Part shown: in pieces, positions 47,005 through 60,174 of the stretch
Numbering within the stretch: position 1 is the first letter of the stretch
How the letters are laid out: each line of letters begins with the position of its first letter
Assembly (NCBI GenBank): GCA_026414605.1
Contig: JAOAIP010000041.1
Span: 62,001-126,000, forward strand
Direction: 5' to 3'
Source of the DNA: Bacteroidia bacterium
GTDB lineage: Bacteria > Bacteroidota > Bacteroidia > B-17B0 > Aurantibacillaceae
Length of the DNA stretch: 64,000 nt
Program-made: the position numbers and the translations under genes
The notes under the pieces: model-generated
Told to the model about the DNA's origin: nothing
Databases searched by the model: none
Seen by the model: the letters and a program-made list of their open reading frames with translations, nothing else

Positions 47005-47928
47005 ATGACAAAAATTACTGCTAAACCATTTTTAAAATGGGCAGGAGGGAAAACACAAATTATTGATGAAATAGCAAAATTACTGCCCCAAAAATTACAT
47101 AAAACAAGTTTTACTTACATAGAACCCTTTGTTGGCAGTGGTGCTGTTTTATTTTGGATGTTGAAAAATTTCCCTAATATCAAAACTGCAATCATAAATG
47201 ATATAAACGAAGATTTAATAAATGTTTACAAAGTTATAGCGAAAAATCCGCAAAAATTAATTTCAATACTTGAAAAATATCAAAAAAGATATTATGAGTT
47301 AGAAAATAATGGTGATGCAAAAAAAGAATATTATTACAAGCAAAGAGATTTATTTAATCAAAGAAAAGAAGATAAAATAACGCATGCGGCTTTGTTTATT
47401 TTCTTAAATAAGACGTGCTTTAATGGATTGTATAGAGTTAATAGCAAAAATGAGTTTAATGTTCCTATTGGAAAGTATAAATATCCCAAAATATGCGATA
47501 AAGAAAATATATTTGCAGTTAGTGCTAATCTTAAAAAAGTTAAAATCCTTTGTGGTGATTTTGAAAACACATTAGATTATGTTGATAAAAATACCTTTGT
47601 TTACTTAGATCCACCTTATAAGCCAATCAGTAAAACTTCCAGTTTTCAATCTTACACAATGTTTGATTTTACAGATAAAGATCAGATACGATTAAAAAAT
47701 TTTTGTAAAAAATTAGATGATCTTGGATGTACTTGGATTTTGAGCAATTCAGATTTAACTAATACAAACTCAAACGATTTGTTTTTTGACAATTTGTATT
47801 CAGAGTTTCTTATAAAAAGAGTAAATGCAAAAAGATTTATTAATGCAATTGGTAACAAAAGAGGGACACTAAAAGAATTACTAATAACAAATCAAAAAAA
47901 CATAAAAGAATATGCCGAAGGACTTTGA
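47005..47928 (+). CDS. dpnM: Dam/DpnM-type adenine DNA methyltransferase (GATC)
   Basis: 307 aa of the D12 class (alpha arrangement). Methylates N6 of adenine, in this family in GATC. Seen in order: FLKWAGGKTQIIDEI, motif I YIEPFVGSGAVLFWML, INDINEDLINVYKVI, NKTCFNGLYRVNSKNEFNVP (given to 20), catalytic motif IV VYLDPPYKPIS, and ILSNSDL. Its stop overlaps the next gene by 17 bp. It heads a three-gene system with the endonuclease and a second methylase, as in DpnII/MboI systems. Confidence 0.92.
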   Translation: MTKITAKPFLKWAGGKTQIIDEIAKLLPQKLHKTSFTYIEPFVGSGAVLFWMLKNFPNIKTAIINDINEDLINVYKVIAKNPQKLISILEKYQKRYYELENNGDAKKEYYYKQRDLFNQRKEDKITHAALFIFLNKTCFNGLYRVNSKNEFNVPIGKYKYPKICDKENIFAVSANLKKVKILCGDFENTLDYVDKNTFVYLDPPYKPISKTSSFQSYTMFDFTDKDQIRLKNFCKKLDDLGCTWILSNSDLTNTNSNDLFFDNLYSEFLIKRVNAKRFINAIGNKRGTLKELLITNQKNIKEYAEGL

Positions 47929-48754
47929 GAAATTTATTTCACAACTAACAGAAACAAATGCCACTTTAGATTATTTTACTGATTTTAATAAAATAAAGAA
48001 AAACGTAAATAAAATTGCTATAAAATTGAATCAACTAAATTATCTTATCGGTCAAACAGATTTGAAAAAAGCCATAAAAGAGATATACGAAGAAAATCCC
48101 AAAACATTTGATGTATTGGGAATTCTAATTGCTGTACGCAACAACAAAGAAACAAAAACATTAAACAAAAACGGCCAAGTTACTATAATAGATTCTTATT
48201 TTAATTCCCCAGAAAGTATTTATGAATTTATTGAAGAAACAGGTCTAATTGAAATTTTTAGGAACAAAGACGTTAAAAATTTAGTGGATTATGTATTCGG
48301 AATAGAAGTGGGTTTAGATACTAATGCAAGAAAAAATAGAGTAGGAAAAAATATGTCAAAAGCAGTATCATTAATATTTGACAAAGAAAACATTTATTAC
48401 AAAAAAGAAGTTGAAAGTACTGTATTTCCTGAAATTTTAAGTTTAGGTGTGGATATAAAACGATTTGATTTTGTAATTAAAACAAAACTAAAAACATATT
48501 TAATAGAAACCAACTTCTATAACAGCAGTGGTTCAAAATTAAATGAAACGGCAAGATCTTATTCTGATTTGGCAATAAAAATTAATCAATATCATAATTA
48601 CGAATTTGTATGGATAACTGATGGTATGGGATGGCTTGCCGCTAAAAATAAATTAGAAGAAGCATTTAATATAATACCAAGTGTCTATAATTTAAAAACA
48701 CTTATGGCATTCATTGATAAAATTAAAGCCGAGAATATAGTTAGTAATTGGTAA
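47912..48754 (+). CDS. DpnII/MboI-type restriction endonuclease (GATC)
   Basis: 280 aa, the usual size for R.DpnII. It cleaves unmethylated GATC. Recognisable parts are DFEKFISQLTETNATLDYFT near the start, FDVLGILIAVRN, the region EVGLDTNARKNRVGKNM, and the likely PD-(D/E)xK core around IKRFDFVIKTKLKTYLIETN (D then ETN in place of ExK) followed by YNSSGSKLNETARSY. The start overlaps the preceding methylase by 17 bp, coupling expression. Specificity is inferred from the family and both flanking methylases. Confidence 0.88.
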   Translation: MPKDFEKFISQLTETNATLDYFTDFNKIKKNVNKIAIKLNQLNYLIGQTDLKKAIKEIYEENPKTFDVLGILIAVRNNKETKTLNKNGQVTIIDSYFNSPESIYEFIEETGLIEIFRNKDVKNLVDYVFGIEVGLDTNARKNRVGKNMSKAVSLIFDKENIYYKKEVESTVFPEILSLGVDIKRFDFVIKTKLKTYLIETNFYNSSGSKLNETARSYSDLAIKINQYHNYEFVWITDGMGWLAAKNKLEEAFNIIPSVYNLKTLMAFIDKIKAENIVSNW

Positions 48755-48782
48755 AATTATTCATTTATATTTAATAAAGTAT

Positions 48783-49616
48783 ATGGTTAATCCCTATTTC
48801 CAATCCAAAGACAAAAACTTTTATCTATTTTTTGGAGATACCTTTGACGTTTTGACTAAATTTGATTTTCAATTTGATGTGGTTTTCGCAGACCCTCCTT
48901 ACTTCTTATCAAATGATGGCTTAACTATTCAAAATGGACAAATAACTTCTGTAAATAAAGGACTATGGGACAAATCCTTCGGTTTTGATCATATTAATGA
49001 ATTTAATAGAAAATGGATTTCCTTGGTTCGTAATAAAATGAAAGATAATGCTACAATATGGATTAGTGGTACAATGCACAATATATTTTCTATTGGACAA
49101 ATACTTATAGAACTTGGATTTAAAATCTTAAATATCATAACTTGGGAAAAAACAAATCCTCCACCTAATTTTTCTTGTAAGTACTTTACCCACTCTTCAG
49201 AACAAATTATATGGGCAAGAAAATATCCTCTCATCCCTCATTATTTTAATTATGAATTAATGAAAGCCCTTAATGAAAATAAGCAAATGAAAGATGTTTG
49301 GAGATTGCCTTCAATTGCACCTTGGGAAAAAAATTGCGGCAAGCATCCAACTCAAAAACCATTAGCGTTGTTATCAAGAATAATTTTGGCATCAACAAAA
49401 CCAAATGCTTGGATCTTAGACCCATTTACAGGAAGTTCTACCACAGGCATTGCAGCAAATCTTTTCAATAGAAAATTTGTAGGCATTGATAAAGAAGAAA
49501 GTTTTTTACAAATGAGCATTAAAAGAAAACTTGAAATAGAAAACCCTCAAACAGCAGAGATATTCAGACAACGATTGTCATTAGGTTCAAACTTGTTTCT
49601 ACTAGAAAATTTATAA
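48783..49616 (+). CDS. dpnA: DpnA-type second DNA adenine methyltransferase
   Basis: 277 aa, beta arrangement: catalytic motif DVVFADPPYFLSNDG precedes the SAM motif WILDPFTGSSTTGIAANLF near the C-terminus. DpnA methylates GATC, including single-stranded DNA in Streptococcus, where it protects incoming plasmid DNA. Here the order is methylase, endonuclease, methylase, resembling MboI-like operons. It starts 28 bp after the endonuclease stop. Confidence 0.9.
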   Translation: MVNPYFQSKDKNFYLFFGDTFDVLTKFDFQFDVVFADPPYFLSNDGLTIQNGQITSVNKGLWDKSFGFDHINEFNRKWISLVRNKMKDNATIWISGTMHNIFSIGQILIELGFKILNIITWEKTNPPPNFSCKYFTHSSEQIIWARKYPLIPHYFNYELMKALNENKQMKDVWRLPSIAPWEKNCGKHPTQKPLALLSRIILASTKPNAWILDPFTGSSTTGIAANLFNRKFVGIDKEESFLQMSIKRKLEIENPQTAEIFRQRLSLGSNLFLLENL

Positions 49617-53635: not shown

Positions 53636-56600
53636 ATGAAAAAAACATTTTTAAGTTTAGCAATACTATCTCATTTCATCAGTTTTTCTCAACAAGAATA
53701 TCTTCAATATAGAAGTAAAAACAATCCTCTCTATTGGAAAAATAGAAAGCCACACGCCGCCTATTGGCAACAAGATGTGCATTACAATATATATGCTACT
53801 CTCGATGATACCACAGATATAATCACTGGAAAAGAAGAAATCATTTATTGGAACAACTCGCCCGATCAATTAAAAGAATTGTTTTTCCATCTCTACAACA
53901 ACGCTCAATGCAAAGATTCTTATTTATCGGATTTGTATAAAAATAATCACATCCCTTTAAAATATGGTAAATACAGAGAAAAAAATTTAGGCACACAAGT
54001 TCTTCAAATTAAAATAAAAAGAAAGTACTCTTCTCATTGCGATTCCGTTATTCAAGTTAATCTATCCGATAATAATACAATGAAAGAAATGATCTATGTT
54101 GTTTGCGATACTATCTATAGCGAAAAAGAAATTACAAACTATGAAATAGATGGTACTATTTTGCGAGTTCCCTTGGATGTGCCACTTAAACCTAATGATT
54201 CCTTACAAATTGAAATTCATTTCAAAACTTACTTTGATAAAGAAGCCATTCGTAATAGAATGAAAATGTTTGAATCTTTTGGCTACAAGCATTATGATAT
54301 TGTGCATTGGTATCCTCGTTTAGCCGTTTATGATCACAAAATGAAATGGGACACTCAACAACACCTTGACCACGAATTTTACGGCGACTTTGGATCTTAT
54401 TATGTAGAATTACGTTTGCCCGAACATTATATTTTAGATGGCACAGGCATTATGATTAATGAAAACGAAGTACTACCAAAAGATTTGCGTCAAAAATTAG
54501 ATTTTTCTAACTTCAAAAACAAGCCATTTAATTCCCCACCATCTGAAATTATTAAACCATCTGGTAAATACAAAACTTGGAAATTTAGTGCTATTAATGT
54601 TCACGATGTGGCTTATACTGCTGATCCTACTTACCGCATTGATGAAAAAATATACAATGGTATTCGTTGCATCGCATTAGTTCAAGAACCACACGCGGCT
54701 GGTTGGTTGAATGCTACCGATTATATGACCAAAATCATTGCCACAAATAGCAAAAACATTGGACCTTATCATTATCCAAAAATGATTTGTGCAGACGCCC
54801 AAGATGGAATGGAATATCCTATGCTAACACTGGATGGTGGCTTTGATCCTTTTTATAGAACCCTTCTCATTCACGAAATGACACACAATTGGTTTTTTGG
54901 AATGGTCGGAAGTAACGAAACTTATCGTGCTTTTTTGGATGAAGGTTTTACACAATTTTATACTGCAGACACTTATCAACAAATTGACGGACCTTTTTCA
55001 TTTAATCATTTGCCACAAAATAAATATGAAAAAATTTCTTTTGAACCACTCAAAGAAATGGATGCATCTGTGTACAACCCTTATTATTCTTATGTTGTGA
55101 TACAACAATTAGATATGCCCTTAAATACTCATAGCGATGATTTTAACGGTGGAACAAGACACGGCGGTGGATATAGTTTAGTTTATTTCAAAACAGCCAC
55201 AATGCTCAAAAATCTTGAATACGTACTTGGTAGAAAACTCTTTGATGAAGCAATGCAATATTATTTTAATAAATGGAAATTTGCTCACCCTTATCCTGAA
55301 GATTTTAAGGAAGCCATTATTGAATACACAAAAATAGATTTAAATTGGTTCTTTGATCAATGGTTGGAAACAACAAAAACAATTGATTACAAAATTAGCA
55401 AAGTCAAAAAGATAGACGATGGTATCTATAAAATAACATTCAAACGTAAAGGTGAAATGCAGATGCCCATTGATTTTACTATTATTGATAAAAACGATTC
55501 TGCTCATCATTTTCATATACCAAATACTTGGTTTGTTAAACCCACACAAGCACAAGCACTTAATAGATGGATAGGTTGGGGACCAAAATTAAAACCTTCT
55601 TATACTACTACTGTAAATATCGGACCATCTAATAAAATCAAACAAGTTATTATTGATCCATCGTGTCGTCTTGCAGATGTTGATTGGACAAATAACATTT
55701 ATCCTTTTTCAACAGATATTAATTTTGATTGGAAAGTATACAAACCTATTAACTGGAAAAGTTATGATTTAAAACTCTTTCCTGCTCTGTGGTATAATGG
55801 TTACGATGGTATTAAAATTGGCATCAATCTTACAGGAGATTATTTGAAATACAAGCATATTATTGATGTCTGTTTTTACTTTAATACAGGTCTTGCTCAA
55901 AATTACTTAGATAGTTCAATATCCAAAAATAGTTTTTATCCTTTTTCTCTATTATTCAACTATAAAACAAGATTAAATTTTCTTGGTAAAGAAACTTATC
56001 TTTTTACAGACATTAGGCACATTGATGGTTTGAAATTAGCATCACTCGGATTTGAAAAATTCTTCAATAATAAACAAACACGAATATACCTCTATTACAA
56101 AGGAATGATAAGAGATCAACACAGAGATAGTATTTATTTACTTAATCCTTCATTATGGAGAATTAAGGCATTCAACGGGGCTTTTCATACCGGCATTGAA
56201 CACACTTATACAAGACCTTCTTTCACAGGATTATTTTCTTTAGATATTCGTGCATCAGCGTTTTCTATGTATTATGATTTTTCTTATATTCGTTTTCAAA
56301 ACATACATCGTCAAAAAATTGGTAAGTTTGATTTACATACAAGAATTTTTGGTCAATTTGGTGTTGGTAATTATATCCCTGGTGAATCTGCACTCTTTGT
56401 AGCAGGTGCTAATCCTGAAGAAATGATGGATAATAAATTTACTCGTTCAATGGGAATAATACCGCCTGATTGGGCAAAATTAGGACCTACCACTAATCAT
56501 TTTTCTTATGGTGGTGGCTTAAATTTAAGGGGATATAATGGTTATCTTTTACCTTATGTATGGAACCAAAATTTTATTGATTATGCGTTTGCTGGTTTAT

Positions 56601-56935
56601 CAGGTGCTTCTGTTAATGCAGAATTAGAATTTACTCGTTTATTTTCTTTTTTGAAAATCAAAAAACTGAATAATGCAATGAAATTACAACCTTATTTATT
56701 TGGAGATATTGGTGTTATAGATGTTGGTTATTCGCCTTCGTATATGAAAGCATCTGATATAATGGCAGATGCAGGTGCAGGTATTGCACTTACTATTTAT
56801 AAATGGGGACCCATCACACAAGTTAAACCTTTTACCATTCGTTTTGACGCACCATTATTTTTAAACAAACTTCCTTTTGCAGAAAAAGATTATTTTCAGT
56901 TTAGATGGCTAATAAGCGTAAACAGGGCGTTTTGA
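53636..56935 (+). CDS. Exported M1 metallopeptidase with C-terminal Omp85-like barrel
   Basis: 1099 aa. A signal peptide (MKKTFLSLAILSHFISF, cleavage near SQQ) is followed by an M1 aminopeptidase-like region with zinc site His413-Glu-Met-Thr-His417 and Glu436 eighteen residues later in AFLDEGF; a GxMEN-type motif is replaced by DGMEYPMLTLDGG. From about residue 700 to the end the sequence changes to alternating barrel strands with GGGLNLRGYNGY (about 960-971), FGDIGVIDVG, ADAGAGIALTI and a terminal RWLISVNRAF ending in Phe. These are features of the bacterial surface antigen (Omp85) barrel. Domain assignment of the C-terminus is my inference. Confidence 0.88.
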   Translation: MKKTFLSLAILSHFISFSQQEYLQYRSKNNPLYWKNRKPHAAYWQQDVHYNIYATLDDTTDIITGKEEIIYWNNSPDQLKELFFHLYNNAQCKDSYLSDLYKNNHIPLKYGKYREKNLGTQVLQIKIKRKYSSHCDSVIQVNLSDNNTMKEMIYVVCDTIYSEKEITNYEIDGTILRVPLDVPLKPNDSLQIEIHFKTYFDKEAIRNRMKMFESFGYKHYDIVHWYPRLAVYDHKMKWDTQQHLDHEFYGDFGSYYVELRLPEHYILDGTGIMINENEVLPKDLRQKLDFSNFKNKPFNSPPSEIIKPSGKYKTWKFSAINVHDVAYTADPTYRIDEKIYNGIRCIALVQEPHAAGWLNATDYMTKIIATNSKNIGPYHYPKMICADAQDGMEYPMLTLDGGFDPFYRTLLIHEMTHNWFFGMVGSNETYRAFLDEGFTQFYTADTYQQIDGPFSFNHLPQNKYEKISFEPLKEMDASVYNPYYSYVVIQQLDMPLNTHSDDFNGGTRHGGGYSLVYFKTATMLKNLEYVLGRKLFDEAMQYYFNKWKFAHPYPEDFKEAIIEYTKIDLNWFFDQWLETTKTIDYKISKVKKIDDGIYKITFKRKGEMQMPIDFTIIDKNDSAHHFHIPNTWFVKPTQAQALNRWIGWGPKLKPSYTTTVNIGPSNKIKQVIIDPSCRLADVDWTNNIYPFSTDINFDWKVYKPINWKSYDLKLFPALWYNGYDGIKIGINLTGDYLKYKHIIDVCFYFNTGLAQNYLDSSISKNSFYPFSLLFNYKTRLNFLGKETYLFTDIRHIDGLKLASLGFEKFFNNKQTRIYLYYKGMIRDQHRDSIYLLNPSLWRIKAFNGAFHTGIEHTYTRPSFTGLFSLDIRASAFSMYYDFSYIRFQNIHRQKIGKFDLHTRIFGQFGVGNYIPGESALFVAGANPEEMMDNKFTRSMGIIPPDWAKLGPTTNHFSYGGGLNLRGYNGYLLPYVWNQNFIDYAFAGLSGASVNAELEFTRLFSFLKIKKLNNAMKLQPYLFGDIGVIDVGYSPSYMKASDIMADAGAGIALTIYKWGPITQVKPFTIRFDAPLFLNKLPFAEKDYFQFRWLISVNRAF

Positions 56936-58485: not shown

Positions 58486-58491
58486 TTGCAG

Positions 58492-60174
58492 ATGAAAAAG
58501 ATTTTAATAATAATTATTTCTTTACTTAATATCTTTGTTTTTGCACAAAAAAAAGATGGCTTTGTTCAATTTAAATATCCTGATGGAAAGATTGCTTCTG
58601 AAGGTTATCTAAAAGATGGAAAACCCGATGGTTATTGGAAAAATTATTATCAAAATGGAAAAATTAAAAACGAAGGAAATAGAAAAAATTTTTTATTGGA
58701 TAGTATATGGAAATTTTATGATACAGATGGAAAATTAGTCAAAACAATAGAATACAAGCAAGATAAAAAAAATGGTTGGCTAAAAGAATACGATACAAGT
58801 GGTGTAGTTATATTCAAACAAAAATATAATAACGACATTCCTGTTGATACGGCTTATTATTACTATACAACAGGACAATTAAAAAAAATCATTCCTTATC
58901 AAAAAGGAAAAGCCAATGGAGTATTTTATGAATTTGACAAGGACTCTGTGATTATTGCTGTTGGAGAATATCAAAATGGCTTTTTATTGAAATATGAAAA
59001 AATCAATCAAAAAGACGAAAAAGGACAAAAGCAAGGTGTATGGAAAGAATTTTATGCAGATGGTAAAGTCAAAAAAGAAGTAGATTATAGAGATAATAAA
59101 ATTAATGGTTATGTCAAAGAATACGACAAAAAAGGTAATTTAGTAAATGCAGAAAAATATTCTTTTGGAAAAAAAATTGAAAACCCAAAAGAATTCGCAT
59201 CTGTAGATATGTATAGAGATTATTATGAAGATGGCACATTAAAATACGAAGGACCTTACGTTAAGGGCTATCCTGTTGGAACACATTATCATTATATTAA
59301 AGTGTTTAGATGCGACTCTACACTTATTCCAAGAGACGATACATCAGATGTTTATATTAAAAAACAAGTGTGTAAAAATAAACCTCTGCCCGATTCTGCT
59401 TTTGTTTATGAAAACAATGTTCTTGTAGAAAAAGGACCTATTGATAGTTTGAGAAATCGTCAAGGAATATGGTATGAATATTATTATTCAGGAGAATTGC
59501 GTGGAAAAGGAAAATACAAAAACAATGTCAAAGTAGGAGAATGGACGTATTATTATCCTGATGGAAAAATAGAACAAAAAGGCAAATACACCAATGGAAA
59601 ACCCGATGGACAATGGATTTGGTATTATCCTAATGGAACTATTTTAAGAGAAGAAAATTACATTAAAGGTAAAAGAGATGGAGAATTTAAGGACTACACA
59701 GAAGATGGAAAAATACTAACAGCGGGCTTATACATTGATGATAATAAAGAAGGTTTGTGGATATATGAATTACCTAACTATAAAGTAATTGGAAAATATA
59801 CCAATGGAAACCCCGATAGCACTTGGATTTCATACTATATGCCTTCAGGCAAAGTACGATTCAAAGGAAACTTTATCAATGGCGATCCTGATGGTGTTCA
59901 TTATTGGTATTATGAAAATGGTAATAAAATGATGTTTGGTCCTTATCAAGGTGGAGTAAAAAATGGAGAATGGAAATTTTTTGATGAAGAAGGACATAAC
60001 TATCTCAATATTACTTATGAAAATGACATTGAAGTAAAATGGATGGGACAACCTATCATTCCTACTTATGAAGACGCAATGAAAGTATATGAAACCATTT
60101 TAGAAAATTCAAAAAAATATCAAGAGTTATTAAAAAAGAAAAAAGAAAATAATTCAAATGAGTATTCCGAATAA
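58492..60174 (+). CDS. Exported MORN_2/YwqK-type repeat protein
   Basis: 560 aa from ATG 58492, 6 bp after the nadA stop. The signal peptide (MKKILIIIISLLNIFVFAQ) is followed by about 20 repeats of roughly 22 residues built on the pattern Y-x-DGK-x-x-x-E-G-x-Y-x-x-G-K-x-DG-x-W-x-x-Y, as in KYTNGKPDGQWIWYYPNG and KGKRDGEFKDY. Such proteins are often named YwqK family antitoxin, but no toxin partner is visible and the repeats are widespread, so that label is not supported here. The repeats probably form an elongated beta structure in the envelope. Its end overlaps the kinase start by 17 bp. Confidence 0.88.
   Translation: MKKILIIIISLLNIFVFAQKKDGFVQFKYPDGKIASEGYLKDGKPDGYWKNYYQNGKIKNEGNRKNFLLDSIWKFYDTDGKLVKTIEYKQDKKNGWLKEYDTSGVVIFKQKYNNDIPVDTAYYYYTTGQLKKIIPYQKGKANGVFYEFDKDSVIIAVGEYQNGFLLKYEKINQKDEKGQKQGVWKEFYADGKVKKEVDYRDNKINGYVKEYDKKGNLVNAEKYSFGKKIENPKEFASVDMYRDYYEDGTLKYEGPYVKGYPVGTHYHYIKVFRCDSTLIPRDDTSDVYIKKQVCKNKPLPDSAFVYENNVLVEKGPIDSLRNRQGIWYEYYYSGELRGKGKYKNNVKVGEWTYYYPDGKIEQKGKYTNGKPDGQWIWYYPNGTILREENYIKGKRDGEFKDYTEDGKILTAGLYIDDNKEGLWIYELPNYKVIGKYTNGNPDSTWISYYMPSGKVRFKGNFINGDPDGVHYWYYENGNKMMFGPYQGGVKNGEWKFFDEEGHNYLNITYENDIEVKWMGQPIIPTYEDAMKVYETILENSKKYQELLKKKKENNSNEYSE

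Follow-up and report, generated by a model that had tools for sequence, protein, structure and literature searches.

A predicted fusion of an M1-type zinc peptidase with an Omp85-type outer membrane barrel in the Bacteroidia

Results

The locus and the layout of the fusion protein

We analyzed a window of 64,000 nucleotides on contig JAOAIP010000041.1 of a Bacteroidia bacterium, from an assembly of 76 contigs (GCA_026414605.1). The gene described here encodes a predicted M1 metallopeptidase followed by an Omp85-type beta-barrel (Table 1). Its signal peptide is predicted from the sequence to be of the Sec type. Elsewhere in the window, positions 47005 to 49616 hold a Dam-like methylase, an overlapping DpnII-like endonuclease frame, and a second DNA methylase, which together resemble a restriction-modification set of the DpnII type. 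A 562-aa secreted MORN-repeat protein is encoded at positions 58486 to 60174, the second gene downstream from the fusion.

Table 1. Features of the fusion gene and its product, with positions in the window
Feature	Positions	Strand	Basis
Whole gene, M1 metallopeptidase-Omp85-type barrel fusion, 1,099 aa	53636..56935	+	ORF and translation; full-length homologues
Signal peptide, about residues 1-19, no lipobox Cys	53636..53692	+	Sequence; hydrophobic N terminus also in the aligned homologues
M1 N-terminal beta domain, about residues 47-330	53774..54625	+	Predicted strands; Foldseek to ERAP1/IRAP over ~700 columns
G391-M-E-Y-P motif, putative GxMEN counterpart; E393 and Y394 49/49	54806..54820	+	Homologue alignment
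Peptidase_M1 catalytic domain, residues 409-576	54860..55363	+	PF01433, E 1.1e-13
HEMTH zinc motif (H413, E414, H417)	54872..54886	+	49/49 conserved
E436, third zinc ligand	54941..54943	+	49/49 conserved
Y517, aligned with the catalytic Tyr (PepN Tyr381)	55184..55186	+	HMMER alignment to E. coli PepN chain; 49/49
Beta-sandwich after the catalytic domain, residues 585-675	55388..55660	+	DSSP of model, strands only
16-strand Omp85-type barrel, residues 710-1099	55763..56932	+	Two models; Foldseek
Loop L6 between strands 11 and 12, residues 911-988	56366..56599	+	Predicted model
L964-R-G-Y967, Omp85 L6 signature; R965 49/49	56525..56536	+	Homologue alignment
F1022-G-D-I-G1026 on strand 13, FxDxG signature of BamA/TamA type; F, D, and G 49/49	56699..56713	+	Model; alignment
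Terminal F1099, end of the outer membrane protein beta-signal	56930..56932	+	49/49

The peptidase half

An intact HExxH-x18-E zinc site after a signal peptide had been read in the initial annotation, and we confirmed it. The motif H413-E414-M-T-H417 is followed after 18 residues by E436, with all four residues invariant among the 49 aligned homologues, and PF01433 (Peptidase_M1) matches this region with 51.8 bits against a curated cutoff of 27.7. Both E393 and Tyr517 are likewise identical in 49/49. Foldseek searches with the full-length model returned M1 aminopeptidases as the best matches (E ~1e-21). By its sequence, the peptidase half is predicted to be catalytically complete and of M1 type.

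The position of the GxMEN motif reads GMEYP, which we take to be its M1 counterpart; the glutamate is kept and the asparagine is replaced by tyrosine in all 49 homologues. Because of this reading, N-terminal (aminopeptidase) specificity is uncertain. DSSP analysis of the AlphaFold model found only short helices past residue 580 and no helical/HEAT domain IV. The C terminus varies among M1 enzymes, and a helical domain IV is not a required feature.

The barrel half

We modeled the full protein with AlphaFold2 on the 49-sequence alignment (pLDDT 84, pTM 0.82) and obtained a C-terminal barrel of 16 strands (residues 710-721, 725-736, 740-750, 770-779, 787-796, 799-810, 815-825, 847-860, 863-874, 883-895, 898-910, 989-998, 1015-1029, 1042-1057, 1066-1075, and 1090-1095), with lower pLDDT in L6 and strands 12 to 16. 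A separate model of just the barrel gave the same 16 strands in the same order. The initial annotation had suggested a barrel with an LRGY loop, of a length to fit 16 strands, in the last 380 to 400 residues; both models bear out the strand number and the place of the loop, and the start of the barrel shifts from residue 700 to near residue 710. The ADAGAGIALTI segment that it had called a strand does lie on a predicted strand, number 14, and the terminal phenylalanine to which it had drawn attention proved invariant.

When the barrel-only model was compared with the PDB by Foldseek, all 50 of the matches listed were BamA or TamA (best E 5.6e-9), among them BAM structures from F. johnsoniae and B. 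thetaiotaomicron; TM-scores were moderate, at 0.38 to 0.50, with rmsd of 7 to 16 Å. Maier et al. (2015) described two Omp85 motifs that lock together: (V/I)RG(Y/F) sits at the L6 tip, and (F/G)xDxG lies on strand 13 and takes the form FxDxG in BamA/TamA and GxDxG in the exporter FhaC (PMC4490367). Both of these "lid-lock" motifs are placed in the fusion model as in Omp85 proteins: LRGY (part of GGGLNLRGY at 959 to 967) falls in the loop that joins strand 11 to strand 12, and strand 13 carries FGDIG. The proposed likeness to a VRGF/Y loop thus stands for the position and the invariant arginine, although the motif itself is LRGY; its first residue is L, I, M, or V among the homologues. R965 and D1024 are also present in 33/33 distant relatives that are stand-alone barrels.

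Profile-profile comparison with Omp85 barrels of related Bacteroidota genomes gave P values of 3.4e-5 (local) and 1.7e-6 (global), at a probability of only about 72 to 80%; reversed-profile controls, in local mode, gave 0.28 and 0.06. In narrow hhalign comparisons with BamA alone, the barrel gave no significant match. The C-terminal 400 residues matched no Pfam or NCBIfam family, and PF01103, by which the barrel was initially expected to be recognizable, did not match residues 700 to 1099 even at E 10. This profile also failed to match distant relatives, and it found only BamA and a TamL-like protein in the source genome. We regard the miss as a detection limit of the library rather than a biological criterion. 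With no PF01103 match, the identity of the barrel is visible only from structure and conserved motifs.

No POTRA domain is visible by DSSP of the model, in which residues 585 to 709 form only a beta-sandwich. In PMC4104836, the superfamily is defined by the barrel and includes non-POTRA subfamilies, so on that definition a POTRA domain is not required for membership. Judged by structure and motifs, the predicted barrel belongs to the Omp85 superfamily despite the PF01103 miss: its fold matches, both signature motifs are invariant, and the profile-profile P values are low. The models, Foldseek matches, motifs, and conservation together support the original suggestion that an M1 peptidase is fused to an Omp85-like barrel.

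Distribution and relatives

We searched for the barrel family with a barrel profile and found it in 78/87 genomes of the order and in 123 of the 198 genomes sampled from the class, mostly as a single copy within a fused frame of 1,050 to 1,150 aa. Across a phylum-wide sample it was present in 53/297 genomes; many of these barrels are stand-alone proteins of ~420 aa from one taxonomic family outside the class. At four loci from that family (f44) and a relative (L210, L211, L213, and L217), the stand-alone genes adjoin NUDIX genes and often greA and acetate-kinase-like genes. These four ~420-aa proteins matched no Pfam family.

The source genome also encodes a member of a second M1-barrel family, family B (P0002, 1,009 aa; C58, L035:5926-8955), with the same layout. 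The family B barrel is related to that of the fusion at P 7.5e-10 in profile-profile comparison and has lost the LRGY arginine motif. Its gene lies directly upstream of one for a 706-aa protein that, from its sequence, resembles a tandem peptidyl-prolyl isomerase of the SurA/PpiC type. Two further M1 enzymes in this genome have C termini that are not barrels, and relatives carry 630-aa M1 enzymes without a barrel. Family A forms one clade in the M1 tree, which does not separate loss of the barrel from repeated gain.

Omp85 matches of 1,070 to 1,150 aa in relatives were considered as M1 fusions or metallophosphoesterases and set aside, as the six scanned look like propeller-Omp85 proteins. Large Omp85-barrel proteins at L261 and L265 have a weak N-terminal Peptidase_MA_2 match (E 0.005 to 0.014, below the cutoff), possibly a second, degenerate gluzincin-Omp85 link.

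Retention of the barrel without an active peptidase

Three lineages have an inactivated or deleted peptidase and have kept the barrel, twice at the same syntenic locus. At L222, the M1 fold is present and HExxH is gone, and the barrel scores at E ~1e-77. At L221, just 209 aa of N-terminal sequence stand ahead of the barrel. L249 and L250 encode 445-aa barrel-only proteins with their own signal peptides at a NadC-YihY locus, where L254 to L256, from the same genus, carry the intact fusion of 1,066 to 1,083 aa. That the barrel persists after loss or inactivation of the protease suggests that selection acts on the barrel itself, which would then be more than an anchor.

RlmH-NadC-YihY lies upstream of the fusion or barrel-only gene in 27/91 loci, some of them lacking one of the genes; the arrangement does not occur in the window. 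We saw this gene order at L249, L250, L254 to L259, L039, L040, and L221. Often the YihY gene and the fusion share a strand and either overlap or all but abut, and they may therefore be cotranscribed. We found no clear functional link between the fusion and NadC or YihY as conserved neighbors, and none in a search of the YihY/YhjD literature.

Discussion

Computation shows the order of the domains, the residues of the active site, the fold of the barrel with its lid-lock motifs, the sequence conservation, and the survival of the barrel where the protease has been lost. The likeliest reading of the fusion is an outer membrane-anchored periplasmic aminopeptidase on a barrel with its own role. 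We favor, with moderate confidence, a secreted outer membrane protein that carries a catalytically complete M1-type zinc peptidase on a BamA/TamA-type (FxDxG) barrel, the barrel having its own role and the periplasmic peptidase being auxiliary. BAM would insert the barrel, and the peptidase would hang beneath it; the M1 domain is expected in the periplasm because the even strand number and the C-terminal aromatic beta-signal put both barrel termini there. The peptidase may trim the N termini of peptides or unfolded polypeptides in this compartment. The barrel's own work would most likely be some outer membrane-linked assembly or transport, to which the peptidase would be an accessory.

Another reading is a factor for outer membrane protein assembly or translocation, in which the barrel would engage substrates as BamA/TamA do and the M1 domain beneath it would trim or clear, with some lineages doing without the peptidase; we consider this fairly unlikely. 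Processing of nascent outer membrane proteins by the fusion, also raised in the initial annotation, is possible. The barrel might instead be an anchor or peptide pore only, with an aminopeptidase at its periplasmic mouth trimming, for uptake, peptides that come in through the outer membrane or arise close to it. Such a role would suit the invariant catalytic residues, the service of ordinary M1 enzymes in peptide degradation, and a genome with two ordinary non-barrel M1 enzymes and a second M1-barrel paralogue, but it is made doubtful by L222, L221, L249, and L250, which keep the barrel with the protease lost or inactive, and by the invariance of R965, F1022, D1024, and G1026, which exceeds the needs of an anchor.

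Export of the peptidase to the cell surface through the barrel was suggested at the outset. It would resemble the type Vd-like display first proposed for the patatin-Omp85 protein PlpD, in which the enzyme likewise comes before the barrel. We now find it quite improbable: an even-stranded barrel with a C-terminal beta-signal leaves the N-terminal domain in the periplasm, the lipase domain of PlpD, first thought to be displayed, was placed in the periplasm by experiment (PMC11116518), and strand 13 has the FxDxG of the BamA/TamA insertases, with F1022 in 49/49, rather than the GxDxG of the FhaC exporter (PMC4490367). Very little weight falls on a 16-strand outer membrane barrel unrelated to Omp85 and alike by convergence. 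The missing PF01103 match, the limited profile-profile probability, and a sister family B without the arginine motif would agree with convergence, whereas the 50 Foldseek matches listed are exclusively BamA/TamA, and both signature motifs are invariant on the right loop and strand, with R965 and D1024 extending to the distant stand-alone barrels. Nothing was found in favor of an ordinary M1 enzyme whose C terminus folds into a soluble helical or beta-sandwich domain, and we give that reading almost no credence; the predicted all-beta 16-strand barrel rules it out.

Nearly all Omp85 superfamily members studied so far build or cross membranes, and with the predicted fusion the superfamily gains an architecture that includes a true protease. 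The gene is conserved, occurs in more than half of the genomes sampled from the class, and is mostly single-copy. Natural variants that have a dead active site or consist of the barrel only, two of them at the locus of the intact fusion, offer ready controls for the role of a POTRA-less Omp85 barrel, and they bear on whether outer membrane protein quality control in the Bacteroidota includes a membrane-tethered aminopeptidase. The case also shows that surveys relying on Pfam overlook an entire group of Omp85-type barrels.

We found no description of an M1-Omp85 fusion in the open literature, an absence that is not proof, as subscription papers and preprints were mostly outside the search; two 2025 papers on Bacteroidota BAM structures do not mention a peptidase. 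PF00149, which we take to be the family of calcineurin-like metallophosphoesterases rather than of peptidases, has no match in the fusion by Pfam search. Heinz and Lithgow (2014) recognized ten Omp85 subfamilies by barrel search, among them a "Metallo" subfamily, called "metalloprotease," with a metalloenzyme domain on an Omp85 barrel and defined by PF00149; no M1 peptidase is named among the architectures in the available text (PMC4104836). The fusion resembles this subfamily in joining a metalloenzyme domain to an Omp85 barrel and differs in that its domain belongs to PF01433, a true peptidase family. WD40 (TolB-propeller) Omp85 proteins of related Bacteroidota genomes also carry a non-POTRA N-terminal module on an Omp85 barrel, but theirs is a beta-propeller and their barrels are detected by PF01103. 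The closest parallel among studied proteins is PlpD, which likewise has a hydrolase N-terminal to an Omp85 barrel, shown to be periplasmic in PlpD and expected to be so in the fusion; PlpD has a patatin lipase and one POTRA domain, in contrast to a zinc peptidase and no POTRA domain here.

Compared with the M1 aminopeptidases PepN, ERAP1, and LTA4H, the fusion shares the catalytic domain, HExxH-x18-E, the catalytic tyrosine, and the beta-sandwich, and differs in reading GMEYP for their GxMEN and in having a barrel where they have a helical C-terminal domain. With BamA/TamA it has in common the 16-strand C-terminal barrel, the L6 RG(Y/F) motif between strands 11 and 12, FxDxG on strand 13, and the C-terminal aromatic beta-signal, whereas its barrel sequence is too divergent for PF01103 and its N-terminal module is an M1 peptidase instead of POTRA domains. 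The barrel would replace the helical C-terminal domain of an M1 enzyme, and the peptidase would replace the POTRA domains of an Omp85 protein.
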